Positions 53,700-63,504 of a DNA stretch of 64,000 nucleotides are shown piece after piece (position 1 is the first letter of the stretch; each line of letters opens with the position of its first letter). A model generated the notes under the pieces. It searched no databases. It worked only from the letters and a program-made list of their open reading frames with translations, and was not told where the DNA came from. The stretch spans positions 62,001 to 126,000 of the forward strand of contig NZ_JACHVA010000138.1 in the NCBI RefSeq assembly GCF_014230055.1, given 5' to 3'. The stretch is from Puniceicoccus vermicola. Its GTDB lineage: Bacteria > Verrucomicrobiota > Verrucomicrobiia > Opitutales > Puniceicoccaceae. The position numbers and the translations under genes were made by a program.

Positions 53700-55360
53700 G
53701 CAAGGAAGCAAGATCTCTCGGCAGAAACCGCCCCCCCGAGGGGTTGGGCGGTGTGATCGGGTCAATCGTCAACTTCCAATCGAGAGCTGGACGTGTCCTG
53801 CGAAGCTCCCGAGCGAAGCAAGTAAGCTCTCGCTACTTTGGGCTGTCCCCCGTTCTCGCATGACTTTAGTCGTGCGATTCCTGCAGCGGGATACGCATCT
53901 GGCGTTCAGGAATGACGCGCCCGAGAGGGCACTATGATGAATCCCGGCTATCTTCAACTCGAGCCGAGAGCGCAGCTGAAGCTGCGGCCCTACTCCCGTA
54001 TCACAGGCTTCCAGCCTGTGCCGCGAATCGAGAGCTGGAAGCTCTCGCTACTTTGGCCTTCCCCGTTCTCGCATGACTTTAGTCGTACGATTCCTGCAGC
54101 GGAATACGCATCTGGCGTTCAGGAATGACGCGGCCGAGAGGCCTCCATGATGAGACCCGACGGTCTTCAACTCCAGGCGGGAGCGCAGCTGAAGCTGCGG
54201 CCCTACTCCTGTACCCCAGGCTTCCAGCCTGTGACGCGAGTCGAGAGCTGGAAGCTCTCGCTACTTTGGGCTCCCGGCTCGCAGAGCTTGAGTCGTGCAC
54301 GAGCCGGTCGCGGAAAATCGTAAGATTTCCGCAACCGTTCGGAATATTCCAACCCGCAGCTCCTCTTCTCCAAATTCCTCACCTATTCCTGCGCCAACGG
54401 CGCCAAACTCGTCAGGCAAGGGCAACGCCCTGGGTGACCTCAACCCTCGCAGAGATCCTGGGCCCTGAAGGGACGAAACTTCTCCGGTGCCCATGCCTTC
54501 CGCCGCAACAGAGTGACGCCCTTTCAGGGCTATTTTCGGAGGAGGACCCAATACCTAGGGCGTTGCCCTAGGCTGAGGAATCAATGCGCCTTTGGCGCGG
54601 AAGATCCAGCACTCAGGGCGTAGGAATCAACGCCCCTTTGAAGCGGAAAATCAACAGGCCCACGGCCCCAATGAACCGGTCGGACGATTTTCACCGGCGG
54701 GAAAACGCTTCAAACGAAACAAACTACCGCGCCAACGGCGCAAAACCCGTCAGCCCGGGGCAACGCCCTGGGTGACCCAACCCTCGCAGAGATCCTGGGC
54801 CCTGAAGGGACGAGAACTTCTCCTGCCCGCGCCTTCCGCCGCAACAGAGTGACGCCCTTTCAGGGCTAGCATCGGCGGAGGACCAATACCCAGGGCGTTG
54901 CCCTGGGCTTAGGAAGCAATGCGCCTTTGGCGCGGAGGATCCAGCACTCAGGGCGTTGCCCTGGGCGTAGGAATCAACGCCCCTTTTGAAGCGGAAGATC
55001 AACAGGCCCACGGCCCCAATGAACCGGTCGGACGATTTTCACCGCCGGAAAACGCTATAAACGAAACCAACTACCGCACCAACGGCGCAAAACCCGTCAG
55101 CCCGGGGCAACGCCCTGGGAAGTCTCACCCTCGTAAAATCCCGAGCCCTGAAGGGGCGAAATTCCCCACACTTTGCCCATCCCCACATTCCGCAATAGAG
55201 TGACGCCCCTTCAGGGCTATCATCGGCGAAAACCGATACCGCAAATCGAGAGCTGGACGTGTCCTGCGAAGCTCCCGAGCGAAGCAAGGAAGCTCTCGCT
55301 ACTTTAGCTACCGGTCTCGCAGAGCTTTTGAGTTCGAGGATCGCCCTTGGGTTCGGTTTT
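53700..55360 (+). repeat. 1.6-kb gene-free block mixing four palindromic repeat families
   Basis: No credible gene. From left: GAGAGCTGG...AAGCTCTC with a roughly 33-nt insertion in its loop (53781-53836); CGCAGCTGAAGCTGCG at 53971 and 54184; ACAGGCTTCCAGCCTGT near 54003; GAGAGCTGGAAGCTCTC at 54030 and 54243. Then three units of a different repeat (54391, 54729, 55076; spacings 338 and 347) rich in GGGCAACGCCCTGGG, GCCCTGAAGGG and GCGCCTTTGGCGC hairpins. A second loop-expanded copy lies at 55250-55305. All lie in the same orientation as elsewhere. Confidence 0.9.
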
Positions 55361-56044
55361 CTAGAAGAGATCGATCTGCTCGGCGGGGGCTTCGCCTCGA
55401 CCTTGGCTCTCGCGGAACATCCGACCGAGGCTCCAGTCCGGCTTCTCGGCGACGACCCTCTCGAAAAGCAAGGCACTGGCCATGCTGTCATAGAGGGCGG
55501 CATGCCAGCAGGCGCGTTTCTCGGGACAGCGATCGACGGCAAGCCCATCCAGCGGCTCGACCAATCCTTCGGCAGCCACCAAATCACCCAGACTGGCCGA
55601 GCCGCCGGGCCGGAGGGTGCGAAAGAGCCCGCAACTATCCAGCCAAGGACCCCACTCAATGACCGAACGCCCAGCAAAGGACCAATCGGTGACCTCCCCC
55701 GGCGTGCGCCACTGCCGACGGAGAAACCGATCCTCCACCTGAGCGGAATGCGCTAAAAAGGGTCCACTTCTGCGCAGATCCCGAAAAAGTTCCCAAAAAT
55801 CGGAGAACGGTGGTTTTCCGGTCAGATCCTCTTGGTAGAGACCATGGGTATCGCTCTCCCAAGCCGGAACCACGGAAGCGGGCCCGCAGAGCCCGGTCCA
55901 GGTCTGCCGAATGCCCTCGGCGGTGATCTCGACGACTCCATATTCGACGACCCCGGTCCGGTCCCCTCCCTCGAAATCCATGGCATAAACGGACTCGAAG
56001 CCCGCGGCATGGGCTTCGTTCCAAAATCTGGCCAATTCCACCAT
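55361..56044 (-). CDS. DnaQ-like DEDDh 3'-5' exonuclease with beta-clamp motif
   Basis: 227 aa. Exo I: AMDFEGG (Asp23, Glu25); Exo II: FLAHSAQVEDRFL (Asp105 nearby); Exo III: HAALYDSMA (His181, Asp186, the DEDDh pattern). The last five residues QIDLF (223-227) match the bacterial sliding-clamp-binding pentapeptide. It is short for a full epsilon subunit and lacks the alpha-binding tail, so a stand-alone repair exonuclease tethered to the clamp is inferred. Divergent from the PEGA-CsgG cluster. Confidence 0.82.
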   Translation of the reverse strand: MVELARFWNEAHAAGFESVYAMDFEGGDRTGVVEYGVVEITAEGIRQTWTGLCGPASVVPAWESDTHGLYQEDLTGKPPFSDFWELFRDLRRSGPFLAHSAQVEDRFLRRQWRTPGEVTDWSFAGRSVIEWGPWLDSCGLFRTLRPGGSASLGDLVAAEGLVEPLDGLAVDRCPEKRACWHAALYDSMASALLFERVVAEKPDWSLGRMFRESQGRGEAPAEQIDLF

Positions 56045-56256: not shown

Positions 56257-57339
56257 ATGAAAGCACTCACCCTTTTCCTAATCCTTCCTCTGATCTCGAT
56301 GGCCTCCGAGGGCAGCTCGATTTTCATCGTTTCCCGCACCGCGGACACCGAGATCGATTCGACCGAAGCCGGAGACTTCCGAGACGCACTGGCCGCCGAG
56401 CTCGCCGGCTACGGATTCACCTCCGCAGTTCGCTCTGACCAATTCGCCGAAGAAACCGGATCGGAGAAGATCAATGATGCTTCGACCCTCAATCAGGCTC
56501 GCCAAGCGAATGCCCCCTACGCTCTGGTCTCCACCCTTCGCGACCTCAAATCCGAAGTCCGCGAGTATTCCGGCAACGACGTCCAGACATCCAATCGGAT
56601 CTATTCCCTCTCCTTTTCCTACCGCCTTCTAAGCGCCACGGACGGAACCGTCCTCACCGGTGGCAATGGATCGGTCCGCAAGACCTTCCGAGCCACTCAA
56701 GGCGCAGTCACCGTTGACTCGAGCACCACCGGAGAATTGATCGGCCTCGCCGCTACCCGGATTGCCGAAGAAGTGTCCTCGGCCCTGCAGCCGACCGATC
56801 TGGTCGAAACACCCAGCGAAGCCACCAGCGTGAATTTTTCCATCACGGCCCGGGGAATGGGCATGTCCATCCCTGAAGTCACCGAACTCGATTCCGGCGA
56901 GCTTTACGTGACCGGAGATCGCAACGACATCACTCTCGACGCCGTGACCGTACTCATCGACGGGGTCGCCGTTGGATCGGCACCCGGGGAGCTGGAATCA
57001 AGTCCCGGCCTCCATGAGATCACCTTGCAACGGGAAGGGTTCGACGACTGGACCCGCACGGTAAACATTCGCCCTGACCTCGACCTGACAGTCCGCATGT
57101 CCGCTACCGATGCCGAGATCAAGCGCTTCCGCCAGCAATCAGCCTTCCTGGAGAGCCTCCGCACCCAGCGGGTTCTCACCGACGCCGAGGCCGAAAAGAT
57201 TCGCGGGATCGCCCAGATGTTCTCCCAAAGCGGTTTCCGCTGGGACATCCAGCAAGATATTAAAGTCGACACTGACGAAGCCGTAAAAATTGAGCAGAAC
57301 AACCGCACTTTGATGGGCGACAACAAAACCGAAGATTAA
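56257..57339 (+). CDS. Exported PEGA-domain protein of the CsgG-LpoB cluster
   Basis: 360 aa from ATG 56257. Signal peptide MKALTLFLILPLISMASEG. Residues 22-180 (IFIVSRTADTEID...FRDALAAELAGYGFTSAVRSDQF..., ALVSTLRDLKSEV, YRLLSATDGTVLTGG, LIGLAATRIAEEV) look like the CsgG/LpoB nucleotide-fold-like core. Residues 228-281 form a PEGA domain (VLIDGVAVGSAPGELESSPGLHEITLQREGFDDWTRTVNI), then a helical tail. A periplasmic, possibly wall-binding component is inferred. First gene of a five-gene run, 18 bp before csgG-like. Confidence 0.72.
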   Translation: MKALTLFLILPLISMASEGSSIFIVSRTADTEIDSTEAGDFRDALAAELAGYGFTSAVRSDQFAEETGSEKINDASTLNQARQANAPYALVSTLRDLKSEVREYSGNDVQTSNRIYSLSFSYRLLSATDGTVLTGGNGSVRKTFRATQGAVTVDSSTTGELIGLAATRIAEEVSSALQPTDLVETPSEATSVNFSITARGMGMSIPEVTELDSGELYVTGDRNDITLDAVTVLIDGVAVGSAPGELESSPGLHEITLQREGFDDWTRTVNIRPDLDLTVRMSATDAEIKRFRQQSAFLESLRTQRVLTDAEAEKIRGIAQMFSQSGFRWDIQQDIKVDTDEAVKIEQNNRTLMGDNKTED

Positions 57340-57357
57340 CCCCTGTCCTCTGAATTC

Positions 57358-58257
57358 ATGAAAGCATTCCTCCTCCCTTCTCTCCTTTCGATTCTCCTCG
57401 TCCTCAGCGCCGAGGCTCAAAAACTTTCCCTCGCCGTGGGCCCGGTCGAGGTCAACTCGGCAGTCGAAGCCAAAGCCGCCGAACAAGGGAGTCTCCTCCA
57501 GTTGGGCCGGATCGTCGAATCGACCGATTCCGAGCTCATCAATTCCTTTCAGCAGACACGCCGATTTGACATCTTCGCCCGAAGTGACCTCTCGGCCATC
57601 CTTGCTGAGCAGAATCTCGCCCAATCCGGCAACCTCGACCCGAACGACCCCAACACCGCCGAAGCCTTCCGCCTCGCGGGGGTCAAGTATCTGGTCGTGA
57701 CCACGGTGAACGATTTTCAGGACTACATCGAAAAGGCCACTTTTCAAGCCATCGGCAAGACGGTCACCAAACGCATCATCCGTGTCGGCGTCATCGCCAA
57801 GATTTACGATACCACCACCGGAAAACTTCTCGAGTCTACCCGCGTCAACACCGACCTCGAGGACATCGAGTCCGACGGCCAATACGAATCGGTCAAGAAC
57901 AGCGATCTCAGCGAAAGCCTCGTCTCGCAGATGAGCAAAAAGGTCGCCGATAATGTCGCCAACCGCGTCGTCGATGTCCTCTATCCGGCCAAGATTGTCG
58001 GGGTTACCGGAAAGATCGTCATGTTCAATCGAGGCGACGGATTCGATATTTCCAAGGGCGACATCTGGCTCGTCTATGCCGCCGGCGATGAGATGATCGA
58101 CCCGGACACTGGCGAATCCCTCGGATCCGTCGAAGCCGAGGTCGGCAAAATTCGAGTTCTCGAGGTAATGCCCAAGGTCACCCGCGCCGAGATCGTTGAA
58201 GACTACGGCATCGAAAAGCTGCAGGTCGTCCGACCGCAGAAGAGCGACGAGAACTGA
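57358..58257 (+). CDS. CsgG/HfaB-family protein
   Basis: 299 aa. Signal peptide LLSILLVLSAEAQ. Then LAVGPVEV, FDIFARSDLSAILAEQNLAQSGNLDPNDPNTAEAFRLAGVKYLVVTTVNDF, the typical CsgG pattern of R.D...L..Q...G..D......G...GA.yl, and GVIAKIYDTTTGKLLESTRV. The lipid-anchoring Cys of true CsgG is lacking (ends AEAQ), so it is probably periplasmic and not a curli secretion pore. Followed by COG3014, YcfL and LpoB genes. Confidence 0.85.
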   Translation: MKAFLLPSLLSILLVLSAEAQKLSLAVGPVEVNSAVEAKAAEQGSLLQLGRIVESTDSELINSFQQTRRFDIFARSDLSAILAEQNLAQSGNLDPNDPNTAEAFRLAGVKYLVVTTVNDFQDYIEKATFQAIGKTVTKRIIRVGVIAKIYDTTTGKLLESTRVNTDLEDIESDGQYESVKNSDLSESLVSQMSKKVADNVANRVVDVLYPAKIVGVTGKIVMFNRGDGFDISKGDIWLVYAAGDEMIDPDTGESLGSVEAEVGKIRVLEVMPKVTRAEIVEDYGIEKLQVVRPQKSDEN

Positions 58258-58320
58258 TCCGCTCGGACCTCCCGGTTCCCGATCCACCGCACTCCCCGGA
58301 GTCATTGAGCAAACGATCCA

Positions 58321-59865
58321 GTGAAACGAATTCCGCCGCGGTATTCGCTCCATCGACGGGTTCTCTCCTCCCTCTCGGGCTTCCGATCCGGTAAACCAGC
58401 GCGGAAACCCGCGAGGCCCCCGGCTCCATATCGCCGCTGCCAGCAACCGTTTCATCTGATCGGGATCGGCCTCCTCGGCCCGGCACTTCTCTTTTTCGCT
58501 GGTTGCTCAACCTACAATGACGAAGTAGAAGCCGTCCGCAGAAATTGGACCCTCGGGGATTGGGAGCGCGCCAATGCAACCGGCGCCAAGCTTGCCAAGA
58601 ACAAGGAGAACCACCGCAATGAAGTCCTCCTCGGCCTGGAGGAAGGTACCCTCCTCCGCACGATTGACGAGAACCAGGTCAGTCAGGACGTCTACGAACA
58701 GACGTGGGAAGCGATTGAGGCCATGGACCAGAAGGCCGACTTCCGGATCTCCCAAGCCAGCATCGCTCTCCTGATCAACCCGGGCCTCACCCTCTACGAA
58801 GCCCGCACCTACGACCGGATCATGCTTCACACCTACTCAGCGTTGAACTATCTCACGCTCGGGAACTTCGAAGCGGCCCGCGTCGCCCTCAACCGCGCGT
58901 ACAACAGCCAGCAGGATGCCGTCGCCGAGAATTCAAAAAGGATTGCGAAGATGCAGGGCGCCATCGACGAAAAGAAGGATCCCAACGAGAGCCAGATCAA
59001 TATCGGCCAGATTGAGAACAGTCCCGTCACCCAGCAGAAGCTGTCCAACCTCTACGGTCCCATTCGCTCCATGGAGGCCTACGGTCCCTACGTAAATCCC
59101 TTCTCCGTCTACCTGGATGGACTCTATTTCCTGAATCAGGGACTCGATTCCTCCGACCTTGAGCGAGGCCGAAAGAGCATCCAGCGAGTCGCCAGCCTCG
59201 TCCCCGAATCCCCCTGGCTTCAATCCGAATACGAATTGGCCAAGAAGATCGCTGGAGGGAAGGGCCAGCCCGACTCCGTCGTCGTCCTTCTCGAAACAGG
59301 CCTCTCGCCCATGCGAGTCGCCGAAAAAATTGAACTCCCCCTCTTCATTTTCGGGCTCGACGACGTCCCCTACTTCGCCGCGTCCTTCCCGGTTTTAAAA
59401 TTCCAGCCAAACTATCCCAACGGAGCCCAAGTCAACTCCGGCGGAAAAACCTATCGGACCGAGACCATCTCCGATATGGATCGGGTGATCGCCCAGGAAT
59501 TCCGGGATCACGAATCCCTCATCATCTCCCAGGCTATTCTCGCCGCAGCCACCAAAGCCGCGACCCTCTACGTCGCTCGAAGCCAGGCCAAAGACGGATC
59601 CTCGACCCAGGCTCTTATCGATATTTTCGGGATTTTCTACCAAGCCATCACCAACCAACCCGATCTCCGCACTTGGCTCACTCTCCCGAAACAAATTCAA
59701 GGCATCCGCGTCCCCATGCCTGAGGACCGGATCCTTTCCCTCGGATTCTCCGAAAGTAATCAAAAGGTTGAAGTTCCGCTCGTGGACGGCAAAATTGTCG
59801 TTGTTCACATCCGGGTCACTGCAACTGCCGTCAACCCAGTCATCCAACAATTCGCACTCCAATGA
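58321..59865 (+). CDS. COG3014-family lipoprotein
   Basis: 514 aa from GTG 58321. An unusually long basic leader precedes a lipoprotein signal HLIGIGLLGPALLFFAGC (lipobox FAGC near residue 62). The body is helical and TPR-like (LYEARTYDRIMLHTYSALNYLTLGNFEAARVALNRAYNSQQDAV, NPFSVYLDGLYFLNQGLDSSDLERGRKSIQRV) with the family's C-terminal region. COG3014 proteins travel with YcfL/LpoB; function not established. 4-bp overlap with the YcfL-like gene. Confidence 0.82.
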   Translation: MKRIPPRYSLHRRVLSSLSGFRSGKPARKPARPPAPYRRCQQPFHLIGIGLLGPALLFFAGCSTYNDEVEAVRRNWTLGDWERANATGAKLAKNKENHRNEVLLGLEEGTLLRTIDENQVSQDVYEQTWEAIEAMDQKADFRISQASIALLINPGLTLYEARTYDRIMLHTYSALNYLTLGNFEAARVALNRAYNSQQDAVAENSKRIAKMQGAIDEKKDPNESQINIGQIENSPVTQQKLSNLYGPIRSMEAYGPYVNPFSVYLDGLYFLNQGLDSSDLERGRKSIQRVASLVPESPWLQSEYELAKKIAGGKGQPDSVVVLLETGLSPMRVAEKIELPLFIFGLDDVPYFAASFPVLKFQPNYPNGAQVNSGGKTYRTETISDMDRVIAQEFRDHESLIISQAILAAATKAATLYVARSQAKDGSSTQALIDIFGIFYQAITNQPDLRTWLTLPKQIQGIRVPMPEDRILSLGFSESNQKVEVPLVDGKIVVVHIRVTATAVNPVIQQFALQ

Positions 59866-60275
59866 AAACATTCGCGACTCTTACTCTCCTCGCCTCCCTG
59901 CTCTTTGCCGCAGGCTGCAGCACTCCGGTCAACACGATCGACAAGACCAACCCCGATGCCACACCGACCGTGGTCGATAGCCGGGTAGACATCTACGACA
60001 ACAATCTGGCCAAACGACTCAAACTCGTCGGCGTCAACGAAGCGCAGGTCGGAGACCTCCTTCAGATCCAAGTGACCATGCAGAATATTCAGGTGAAACC
60101 CCGCTCGTTTGCCTATCAATTTCAGTGGATTCGCCAGAATGGAATGGTGGTGACCAGCCCCGCCCCCATCTGGACTCCCTCTCACGTCGAAGGCGGTCAA
60201 ACCGTCGCCGTCTCGGCCGTCGCTCCGAACCCCAATGTCGTCGACTTCCGCCTCAGCCTTCGGGAAATTGACTGA
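59862..60275 (+). CDS. YcfL-like (DUF1425) lipoprotein
   Basis: 137 aa. Lipoprotein signal MKTFATLTLLASLLFAAGC (Cys19). The domain VDSRVDIYDNNLAKRLKLVGVNEAQVGDLLQIQVTMQNIQVKPRSFAYQFQWIRQNGMVV followed by P.W.P....G.......VAP matches DUF1425. In Enterobacteria ycfL lies next to lpoB (ycfM), exactly as here. Starts within the COG3014 stop (ATGA). Confidence 0.88.
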   Translation: MKTFATLTLLASLLFAAGCSTPVNTIDKTNPDATPTVVDSRVDIYDNNLAKRLKLVGVNEAQVGDLLQIQVTMQNIQVKPRSFAYQFQWIRQNGMVVTSPAPIWTPSHVEGGQTVAVSAVAPNPNVVDFRLSLREID

Positions 60276-60305
60276 TCCCCGATTTCAATCCATACAGCCT
60301 AAACT

Positions 60306-60902
60306 ATGAAGACCATCTCCCTTCTCCTCTCCTGCGGTTCTCTCGCTCTCCTCGCCGGTTGCGGGGGCGGCGCCAAGTACGTCGACTCCACCGGCCCGAA
60401 CACCATCATCTCCGTCGATAAGATCGACATTCAGGACTGGAGCCGCGCCGCCGACCAGATGGTCCAGAACCTCCTTGCCTCCGGCGTCCTGGATCGCTCC
60501 GAACGCCAACCTGCTATTCTCGCCGTCAGCCGGATCGTCAACAATACTTCCGAGCAGGTCGACACCAACCTCCTGACCAAGAAAATCCGTGTCGCCCTCA
60601 ACCAAAGCGGCAAAGCCGTCACCACAACCACCGTCGGCCTCGGCGGCACCGCCGAAGATCCCCTGGCCAAAGACCAGGCCGCCTACGACTCCTTCCGCAG
60701 TGGCGGAGACGGCGACCCCGGAGTGCAACCCGGTTACTCCCTCTCCGGTCGCCTGATCGAAACCTACATCACTCAGGGCAAAGTCAAGCAAACCACCTTC
60801 TCCTTCCAGCTCTCGCTGACCGAGATCGCCACCGGACTCGCCGTCTGGGAAGACGATGTCGACATCACCAAGCAGGGCAAAAAAGGCTCCGTCGGCTGGT
60901 AA
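60306..60902 (+). CDS. lpoB: LpoB-like penicillin-binding-protein activator lipoprotein
   Basis: 198 aa. Lipobox LALLAGC (Cys19) with Gly-rich start. Core: DWSRAADQMVQNLLASGVLDRSERQPAILAVSRIVNNTSEQVDTNLLTKKIRVALNQSGKAVTTT, then GYSLSGRLIETYI and FQLSLTEIATGLAVWEDDVDITKQGKKGSVGW, all LpoB family features. In E. coli LpoB activates PBP1B; whether the partner synthase exists here cannot be seen. Lacks the long disordered linker of enterobacterial LpoB. Confidence 0.88.
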   Translation: MKTISLLLSCGSLALLAGCGGGAKYVDSTGPNTIISVDKIDIQDWSRAADQMVQNLLASGVLDRSERQPAILAVSRIVNNTSEQVDTNLLTKKIRVALNQSGKAVTTTTVGLGGTAEDPLAKDQAAYDSFRSGGDGDPGVQPGYSLSGRLIETYITQGKVKQTTFSFQLSLTEIATGLAVWEDDVDITKQGKKGSVGW

Positions 60903-60919
60903 CCTTCAGAATTGGGTGA

Positions 60920-62104
60920 GTGACGCTTCTCCTCATCTTTCTCCTTCTCCTTTTTGGATACAGTCTTCTCTCCAAAAAGGTTGAAGGGTCCTACGTCACC
61001 GCTCCCATGATCTTTGCGGGGGCCGGGTTAATCCTGGCCTTCGTCATCGACGAGCCCGTATCGGCGGACAAGGGACTCACGCCGTTCCTGCACGTCGCCG
61101 AGATCGCTTTGGTCCTGCTCCTCTTTTGCGATGCGTCCAAGGTCGACTTAAGCCTTCTGCGCAAGGAAAAGTCTCTCCCGTTGCGCCTCCTCGGTCCCGG
61201 GATGCTCCTCACCATCGGGCTGGGGACCCTGGTCGCCGTTCTCATCTTCCCCCAATTGAGCGGATGGGAAGCCGCCCTCCTCGCAACCATTCTGGCCCCA
61301 ACCGACGCCAGTCTCGGGCAGGTCATCGTCAACAGTGAACGGGTGCCGAAAAAGATTCGCGAGGCTCTTGATGTCGAAGCGGGCCTCAATGACGGTCTCT
61401 CCGTACCATTTCTGCTTTTCTTCATCGCCATCGTCTCTGTCGACGCCGGAGAGAGCTCTTCCTCCCTCCCCGTGCTCATGGGAGAACAGATTGGCTACGG
61501 CGCGATTGTCGGAATCGGTGTGGGCCTTCTCGGAGGCTGGCTGCTCAACGTCGCCACTCGAATGCAGTCGATGGACAGCATTCACCGTCCTCTCGCCGTC
61601 GTCGTCCTCCCCATCCTCGCCTACCTGCTTTCCCACCACATCGAAGGCAGTCCCTTCATCGCCGCCTACGTCGCCGGGCTCGTCACCCAAAAAGCCTTCC
61701 CCAAGATCCAAGAAGGCAGCATTACCTTTACCGACGAATGGGGAGAATCCCTCAGCTTCGCCGTCTTCTTCCTCTTCGGCATCTTTGCCGGTTCTCCCGA
61801 CGCCGGCATCTCCTGGCTCCCCCTCCTCTACGGCATCCTGAGCCTCGCGGTCATTCGCACCATCTCCACCTTCCTCGCCCTCCCCGGAACCGGACTCTCC
61901 ATCCGCGAAAAAACCTTCCTCGGCTGGTTCGGTCCCCGCGGTCTGGCCTCCATCGTCCTCGGTCTCGTTTACTTGGAGGCCGAAGCCCAACTCCCCGGTG
62001 AGAGCACCATTACCGCCGTCGTCATCAGCACCGTCCTCCTCAGCATCTTCCTTCACGGCCTCAGCGCCCGCCCTGGAATCCGCTGGATCGCCAAGAAGTC
62101 GTAA
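60920..62104 (+). CDS. NhaP-type Na+(K+)/H+ antiporter (CPA1)
   Basis: 394 aa, GTG start at 60920, about 11-12 membrane segments. CPA1 motifs: LLLFCDASKVDLSLLRKEKSLPLRLLGPGMLLT, ATILAPTDASLGQVIVNSERVPKKIREALDVEAGLNDGLSVPFLLF (APTD and EAGLNDG with the ion-binding ND pair) and GWFGPRGLASIVLGLVYL. Exchanges Na+ or K+ for protons. 17 bp after lpoB, so co-transcription with the envelope cluster is likely. Confidence 0.93.
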   Translation: MTLLLIFLLLLFGYSLLSKKVEGSYVTAPMIFAGAGLILAFVIDEPVSADKGLTPFLHVAEIALVLLLFCDASKVDLSLLRKEKSLPLRLLGPGMLLTIGLGTLVAVLIFPQLSGWEAALLATILAPTDASLGQVIVNSERVPKKIREALDVEAGLNDGLSVPFLLFFIAIVSVDAGESSSSLPVLMGEQIGYGAIVGIGVGLLGGWLLNVATRMQSMDSIHRPLAVVVLPILAYLLSHHIEGSPFIAAYVAGLVTQKAFPKIQEGSITFTDEWGESLSFAVFFLFGIFAGSPDAGISWLPLLYGILSLAVIRTISTFLALPGTGLSIREKTFLGWFGPRGLASIVLGLVYLEAEAQLPGESTITAVVISTVLLSIFLHGLSARPGIRWIAKKS

Positions 62105-62664: not shown

Positions 62665-63504
62665 ATGAAAACTTCCGTCTTCCTTTTCCTCCCCCTGTTT
62701 TACCTGAATTCGGTCGCATTCGGAGAGGATGGGAAACAACCTGTTCCGACACTCACCGAGGCCAGTGCGCAGGTAGAATCGGAGATGTCCCTGAAAAGAT
62801 CACGGGAGCACCAGGAACGTCTAGACTTGCTTGCGGTTCCCGCCGAGACGGAAACGGTGAGAATTCTGAAGAACGGCGGATCAATCCGCCTACGGCAGGT
62901 CGCCGCTCCACCTCAATCAGCAGCACCAAGAGATAAAAAAGCTGCTATCCGTCCACCACGGACAGAAGAAGAGATGCAAAAATTCCTGGCCGAAGCAAAG
63001 TCTCCGGAGAATATGCCGCTATCGGTGACGGTTTATGACGATCAAATTTCGTCGATTCGCCTCTGGCACGAGGGGGAAACATACGAGGTCTTGAGCAATG
63101 TGCCCTTCTCGCATTTGCAGGTCCTTGGTTCTTTCGAAACGGAAGAGGCCGTTTGGAGCGTGATAGCGATGGTCGAGGAGGTGCAGGAAGGGCAGGAGCA
63201 GCGGATCGCCGGACAGGCGCGTCGTTTCGGCGCGACATACACGCCGCGCAAACGCCCCGACACCAGTCATTTCACCTCGCTGGAGGACCCCGAGTACTTG
63301 GTTTTTCCAGAGCACGGGGAGACCATTCCGGAGGATGTTTTCGCCAAACTTGACGCCCTGCACGCCTATTATCTGACAAATGAGTCAAAGCTGGCCGTGG
63401 AGCACGAGCGCCGGGAGGTCTTCGCGGAGGCGCATCGGCGCTACCGCGCAGAAAATCCGCCCGCGCCGCAGGATATCGTCATCAATTTTTGGAGAGTTGA
63501 ATAA
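62665..63504 (+). CDS. Exported protein of unknown family
   Basis: 279 aa. Signal peptide MKTSVFLFLPLFYLNSVAFG, then a charged helical region with no recognised domain (EMQKFLAEAKSPENMPLSVTVYDDQISSIRLWHEGETYEVLSNVPFSHL, EERREVFAEAHRRYRAENPPAPQDIVINFWRVE). Codon use moves to GCG/CCG and away from the GCC/CCC dominant in the rest of the window, hinting at a different origin. It is followed 19 bp later by another exported protein and probably shares its transcript. Confidence 0.72.
   Translation: MKTSVFLFLPLFYLNSVAFGEDGKQPVPTLTEASAQVESEMSLKRSREHQERLDLLAVPAETETVRILKNGGSIRLRQVAAPPQSAAPRDKKAAIRPPRTEEEMQKFLAEAKSPENMPLSVTVYDDQISSIRLWHEGETYEVLSNVPFSHLQVLGSFETEEAVWSVIAMVEEVQEGQEQRIAGQARRFGATYTPRKRPDTSHFTSLEDPEYLVFPEHGETIPEDVFAKLDALHAYYLTNESKLAVEHERREVFAEAHRRYRAENPPAPQDIVINFWRVE

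Follow-up and report, generated by a model that had tools for sequence, protein, structure and literature searches.

The stretch of DNA considered here, hereafter the window, comprises 64,000 nucleotides of contig NZ_JACHVA010000138.1 of Puniceicoccus vermicola (Verrucomicrobiota, Opitutales); all coordinates are window positions. Between 56257 and 62104, six collinear open reading frames (ORFs) are found on the plus strand. The first five (56257-60902) form a gene set for envelope proteins that recurs in other genomes, and the sixth encodes an antiporter. The features are as follows (aa, amino acids; TPR, tetratricopeptide repeat).

56257..57339, plus strand: PEGA protein, 360 aa, with a Sec-type signal peptide, an N-terminal CsgG-like core and a PEGA domain at residues 231-278 (Pfam PEGA, 6.5e-10)
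57358..58257, plus strand: CsgG-superfamily protein of FlgT-like architecture, 299 aa, core fold and C-terminal barrel, without lipobox (Pfam CsgG, 1.7e-10)
58321..59865, plus strand: large COG3014-like TPR lipoprotein, 514 aa when counted from a GTG codon (true start uncertain), lipobox Cys62
59662..59688, plus strand: motif D-x-R-x-W-x-x-L-P of the COG3014-like protein, near-invariant in the alignment
59862..60275, plus strand: YcfL/DUF1425 lipoprotein, 137 aa, lipobox Cys19, overlapping the COG3014-like gene by 4 bp (Pfam DUF1425, 1.3e-20)
60306..60902, plus strand: lipoprotein of the LpoB family, 198 aa, with lipobox Cys19 and a short tether (about 25 aa; Pfam LpoB, 3.3e-23)
60864..60899, plus strand: C-terminal tail of LpoB, ITKQGKKGSVGW, with an aromatic last residue; an aromatic end is common among homologues
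60920..62104, plus strand: antiporter of the Na+/H+ exchanger family (Pfam Na_H_Exchanger, 5.6e-39), a neighbour outside the conserved set

The intergenic spacings along the six ORFs (18, 63, -4, 30 and 17 bp) are compatible with an operon, antiporter included. The name COG3014 is taken over, as a provisional label, from an earlier note on the window.

Conservation of the gene set

The conservation of the cluster was studied in 94 non-redundant loci from Opitutales, other Verrucomicrobiota and anaerobic ammonium-oxidizing (anammox) Planctomycetota, scored with profiles derived from relatives. The 21-row alignment of COG3014 being too diverse for a genome scan, an 11-row version was used. COG3014 is accompanied by YcfL in 83 of 90 loci and by LpoB in 82 of 85, while CsgG and PEGA occur in its vicinity in 66 of 87 and 65 of 84, respectively. 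Such grouping is far beyond chance. Among the 76 loci with full context, 68 contain the COG3014-YcfL-LpoB triad. The pairing of PEGA with CsgG is strict in these loci: both genes are present in 59 cases, neither in 17, and one without the other in none. Because PEGA and CsgG either co-occur or are jointly absent, the cluster consists of two modules, COG3014-YcfL-LpoB and PEGA-CsgG. Co-occurrence of the five genes in other genomes, which the earlier note had itself named as the test of its proposal, is observed in 57 of the 76 full-context loci, with other gene orders elsewhere in the phylum. In more distant families, the orders COG3014-PEGA-YcfL-LpoB and PEGA-COG3014-YcfL-LpoB are encountered, as well as PEGA-CsgG-YcfL-LpoB with COG3014 located elsewhere in the genome. 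In three genomes whose cluster appears without COG3014, this gene is encoded away from the cluster. Outside these groups, Azospirillum has the order COG3014-YcfL-LpoB-DUF6844-CsgG-like, and Aeromonas the triad COG3014-YcfL-LpoB.

A sixth conserved gene was sought around the cluster loci and none recurs across the set. The antiporter, which the earlier note had counted as a member, is a local neighbour, found beside the cluster in 2 of the 94 loci, those of the window and of one congener. In unrooted trees, the anammox copies form one clade, both for COG3014 and for LpoB. These single clades would fit joint inheritance of the two genes; the unrooted trees give no direction.

Some loci show particular arrangements. 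In the Azospirillum cluster, carried by a plasmid, the DUF6844 protein lies between LpoB and the CsgG/FlgT-like protein (L170:10142-11488). In another locus (L033:6590-7816), the PEGA gene has shifted to the far side of LpoB and still adjoins the cluster. In locus L032, the triad is closely followed downstream by a second copy, which has diverged and shows the order LpoB-COG3014(short)-YcfL (L032:12660-15086). The LpoB of this second copy ends with YR, and a similar LpoB is carried by a Marinobacter plasmid (L172), where it is followed by COG3014 across the origin of the record.

The surroundings of the cluster in the window also deserve mention. Upstream, an intergenic region (53778-55327) carries nested direct repeats, with two 213-nt tandem copies that are 90% identical, units recurring every 340-350 nt, and a bounding 62-nt repeat (98%) whose copies are 1466 nt apart. 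Next to it, on the minus strand, a gene (55361-56044) with a weak RNase_T/exonuclease match (Pfam, 0.1) keeps its position beside the cluster in both congeners examined. Downstream, at 62665-63504, a predicted secreted protein of 279 aa has no Pfam match.

Features of the encoded proteins

A lipobox is frequent in the homologues of COG3014 (84/93), YcfL (75/87) and LpoB (82/85), and rare in those of CsgG (2/68) and PEGA (7/64). The absence of a lipobox in the window CsgG-like protein, already pointed out in the earlier note, is therefore general in the family. This distribution fits three lipoproteins anchored in a membrane, presumably the outer rather than the inner one, and two proteins that are soluble in the periplasm.

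The two proteins of the PEGA-CsgG module appear related. When the two family profiles are compared with hhalign, the N-terminus of PEGA matches the CsgG family of the cluster over about 150 N-terminal columns (97%, E 5e-11), in agreement with the CsgG-like core that the earlier note had attributed to the PEGA protein. Such profile comparisons did not detect any relation of LpoB to the PEGA or CsgG families of the cluster. The AlphaFold2 (AF2) model of the CsgG-like protein has a predicted local distance difference test score (pLDDT) of 87 and a predicted template modelling score (pTM) of 0.80. Its best Foldseek matches are structures of FlgT (3w1e, 2.8e-16, and 8z5n, 1.6e-15), CsgG coming next (1.6e-6). 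The alignment with FlgT extends over 291 columns, in the middle and C-terminal domains of FlgT, with a global TM-score of only 0.40, and domain orientation may differ. Hence, the model suggests that the window protein folds best onto FlgT and not onto the curli pore. In addition, its C-terminus resembles TsaP at the sequence level. Vibrio FlgT belongs to the flagellar H-ring. However, it has 356 aa, as compared to 299 here, the window locus is not flagellar, and FlgI is found neither in the host nor in most cluster-bearing genomes (absent from 20/28, host included). A role in a flagellar ring was rejected on the ground of this absence. The core fold is shared with the CsgG, PelC, LptE and GNA1162 family, from which the window protein differs by the lack of a lipobox and by its extra C-terminal barrel. 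The model also lacks a counterpart of the second membrane hairpin, a feature of established CsgG structures. In this single predicted monomer, one long hairpin (111-151) is visible and a 10-residue loop (171-180) stands at the position of the second hairpin. This replacement makes it unlikely that the protein forms a pore of the curli type.

For the large TPR lipoprotein, Pfam and NCBIfam searches matched no model. Its AF2 model (pLDDT 84, pTM 0.82) has a helical-repeat N-terminal half and a beta-rich C-terminal half. A fold search with this model yielded no solved structure that covers the whole fold. Its hits are partial, to TPRs, and none reaches significance over the full protein, the best local ones being with TPR proteins, NlpI and BamD among them. 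Residues D448, R450, W452 and P456 are invariant in the 21-sequence alignment.

The YcfL profile matches two solved structures, 3o0l (3.5e-13) and 4gio (9e-8), the latter being that of Cj0090. A profile match between YcfL and LpoB was discounted as a sign of kinship, since it is confined to the signal peptide. The window LpoB is the sole LpoB detected in the genome. It scores 91 bits against NCBIfam TIGR02722, below the cut-off of 110.55, and the LpoB family of the cluster is well conserved (48% mean column identity). Counted on the sequences themselves, the tether from the lipobox cysteine to IQDW has about 25 residues versus 59 in E. coli, making it some 30-34 residues shorter. At the C-terminus, W or F is the last residue in 77 of 82 homologues, mostly after a conserved I-x-K-Q stretch. 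Aeromonas LpoB ends with FGW and that of Azospirillum with VSW, while the proteins of E. coli, Klebsiella and Serratia have no such tail. C-terminal peptides are frequent ligands of TPR domains. On this account, it is a fair guess that the aromatic tail may dock on the TPR lipoprotein. A related idea, co-occurrence of the tail with COG3014, is weakened by three genomes whose tail-less LpoB is accompanied by COG3014 elsewhere in the genome, and further by the Marinobacter plasmid, where COG3014 adjoins a tail-less LpoB across the record's origin.

Wall synthesis enzymes of the host and its relatives

LpoB is known as a switch of PBP1B, a class A penicillin-binding protein (PBP), and the earlier note had linked the cluster to PBP1-type synthases. 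The host genome, which is 96% complete, gives no match to GT51, the marker of class A PBPs, the search being positive in 10 of 14 control genomes. In the set of relatives, 49 of 52 genomes lack GT51, as do 19 of 21 genomes with COG3014 (host included in both counts). GT51 is also missing from all of the 14 other cluster-bearing genomes, which include Cerasicoccus isolates, the complete IMCC26134 genome, Brocadia and Jettenia. Because complete and isolate relatives lack GT51 as well, an enzyme hidden in the missing 4% of the host genome is unlikely. In 195 genomes sampled evenly across the phylum, DUF1425 is found in 83 and GT51 in 63, with an overlap, counted by hand, of 20; hence, 63 of the 83 DUF1425 genomes have no GT51. 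No match to the UB2H docking domain was found in the host, and the matches in relatives are weak and mostly located in frames of about 1,100-1,230 aa, the size of Mfd. Since the enzyme is absent, a role with class A PBPs is excluded here, with the reservation that the genome is 96% complete, which the complete and isolate relatives attenuate, and the proposed link to PBP1-type synthases is not retained.

Two SEDS (shape, elongation, division and sporulation) polymerases and two class B PBPs, which are transpeptidases, are encoded in the host. With these enzymes, wall construction is possible in the host even if class A PBPs are lacking. The absence of GT51 agrees with published work. Kuenenia has peptidoglycan although GT51 is absent (PMC4432595), ftsI is the only PBP gene found in Opitutaceae with peptidoglycan (PMC5303756), and loss of class A PBPs has been described in parts of the Planctomycetes-Verrucomicrobia-Chlamydiae (PVC) group (PMC8406291).

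Possible functions of the cluster

The earlier note considered that only LpoB had an established role. This overlooks work on Campylobacterota, in which the core triad is already known and a link with wall remodelling has been proposed. In Campylobacter jejuni, cj0089-cj0090-cj0091 is a co-transcribed operon whose products are a lipoprotein with TPRs, Cj0090, and Cj0091, which resembles LpoB (PMC3100323). The TPR lipoprotein, the DUF1425-type Ig-like lipoprotein and the LpoB-like lipoprotein are adjacent there, in the same order as in the window, and the profile built for YcfL hits 4gio, the structure of Cj0090 (PMC3100323, PMC11394524). HP0018 of Helicobacter is the homologue of Cj0089, and synteny ties it to the LpoB-like HP1457 (PMC11394524). 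Deletion of hp0018 in H. pylori leads to chains of outer-membrane vesicles and to less helical cells, and the peptidoglycan hydrolases MltD and AmiA co-immunoprecipitated with HP0018 (PMC11394524). On the other hand, descriptions of these systems mention neither a PEGA gene nor a FlgT-like one, and the HP0018 authors connect HP1457 with PBP1B, whereas most hosts of the window-type cluster have no class A PBP. In E. coli, YcfL and LpoB homologues are adjacent (hinT-ycfL-lpoB-thiK-nagZ), but COG3014, PEGA and CsgG-like genes are not adjacent to them, and LpoB has a long proline-rich tether, no C-terminal aromatic tail and PBP1B as its target, which is absent from the host. In a limited literature search, no description was found of the five-gene form with PEGA and the FlgT-like protein, nor of its spread in bacteria without class A PBPs. 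The cluster is a conserved operon for envelope proteins, known in kind but new in its five-gene form.

We favour, with about even confidence, the view that the five genes specify one outer-membrane-anchored scaffold that would connect the outer membrane with the remodelling of peptidoglycan, class A PBPs playing no part. The COG3014-like, YcfL and LpoB lipoproteins would make up the scaffold on the membrane side. PEGA and the FlgT-like protein, as soluble partners in the periplasm, would constitute the second module, probably as an oligomeric ring or collar, as in the related folds of FlgT, PelC and CsgG. The resulting complex would fasten the outer membrane to peptidoglycan and adjust the remodelling of the latter, acting either on synthesis by SEDS and class B PBPs or on hydrolases. 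Switching of a class A PBP would be impossible as a mode of action in the host, where none was found. We prefer the scaffold because the genes are co-conserved, with strict PEGA-CsgG pairing and recurrence in other orders, because GT51 is absent while two SEDS and two transpeptidases are present, and because YcfL matches Cj0090 and hp0018 deletion affects vesicles and cell shape. The remodelling role would be transposed from the H. pylori homologue HP0018 and its reported partners MltD and AmiA. Several observations weigh against the scaffold. The HP0018 co-immunoprecipitation is a single replicate of weak specificity (PMC11394524), a C. jejuni cj0089 mutant is normal in adherence and colonisation, and Cj0089 was found in the inner-membrane fraction (PMC3100323). 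Moreover, the COG3014-like protein would be placed in the HP0018/Cj0089 family on the basis of synteny, protein size, the presence of TPRs and the match of YcfL to Cj0090.

Other mechanisms may be envisaged. LpoB might activate a SEDS-class B PBP pair (RodA/FtsW and a transpeptidase) instead of PBP1B, the other four proteins positioning LpoB. Apart from the two SEDS and two transpeptidase genes, no polymerase set was found in the genome, and LpoB is retained with 48% mean column identity. However, a tether of 25 residues instead of 59 would hamper reaching the inner membrane, no docking site was identified, and we know of no LpoB relative acting on SEDS, which makes this mechanism improbable. 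It is rather less probable that the proteins form an envelope ring stabilizing a non-flagellar surface machine, for instance a type IV pilus or a secretin, in the manner of FlgT or TsaP. The FlgT match spanning most of the FlgT-like protein would favour such a ring, as would the resemblance of its C-terminus to TsaP, a secretin-associated protein. Against it, sequence clustering of the incompletely annotated neighbours showed no pilus, secretin or flagellar family recurring beside the cluster (no genome-wide secretin search was made), and FlgI is missing as described above. A curli-type secretion channel formed by the CsgG homologue is very unlikely. Although the Pfam CsgG match and the place of CsgG among the structural matches (E 1.6e-6) point that way, FlgT fits far better, the lipobox is lacking, an extra C-terminal barrel and a loop instead of the second hairpin are predicted, and no recurring extra gene would suit a fibre subunit. 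Finally, classical activation of a class A PBP by LpoB is scarcely credible, the Pfam hit and a degree of resemblance to solved LpoB structures being outweighed by the missing GT51, UB2H matches limited to weak ones in Mfd-sized frames of relatives, the short tether, the score under the NCBIfam cut-off, and the 63 of 83 DUF1425 genomes of the phylum devoid of GT51.

Tentatively, it may also be imagined that the ancestral role of LpoB, YcfL and COG3014 was that of an outer-membrane-to-wall scaffold in bacteria building their wall with SEDS only. Activation of PBP1B in enterobacteria would then have been derived later, after COG3014 left the operon; we regard this scenario as possible but doubtful.

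The anammox wall built in the absence of GT51 was recognised earlier as a puzzle (PMC4432595). The present analysis places a conserved LpoB within a five-gene envelope operon of bacteria without class A PBPs, anammox species included. The automatic label 'penicillin-binding protein activator' is therefore misleading in such organisms. The operon is a concrete candidate for the linkage between outer membrane and wall in class A PBP-less bacteria, and an LpoB-like function without PBP1B becomes a testable question.

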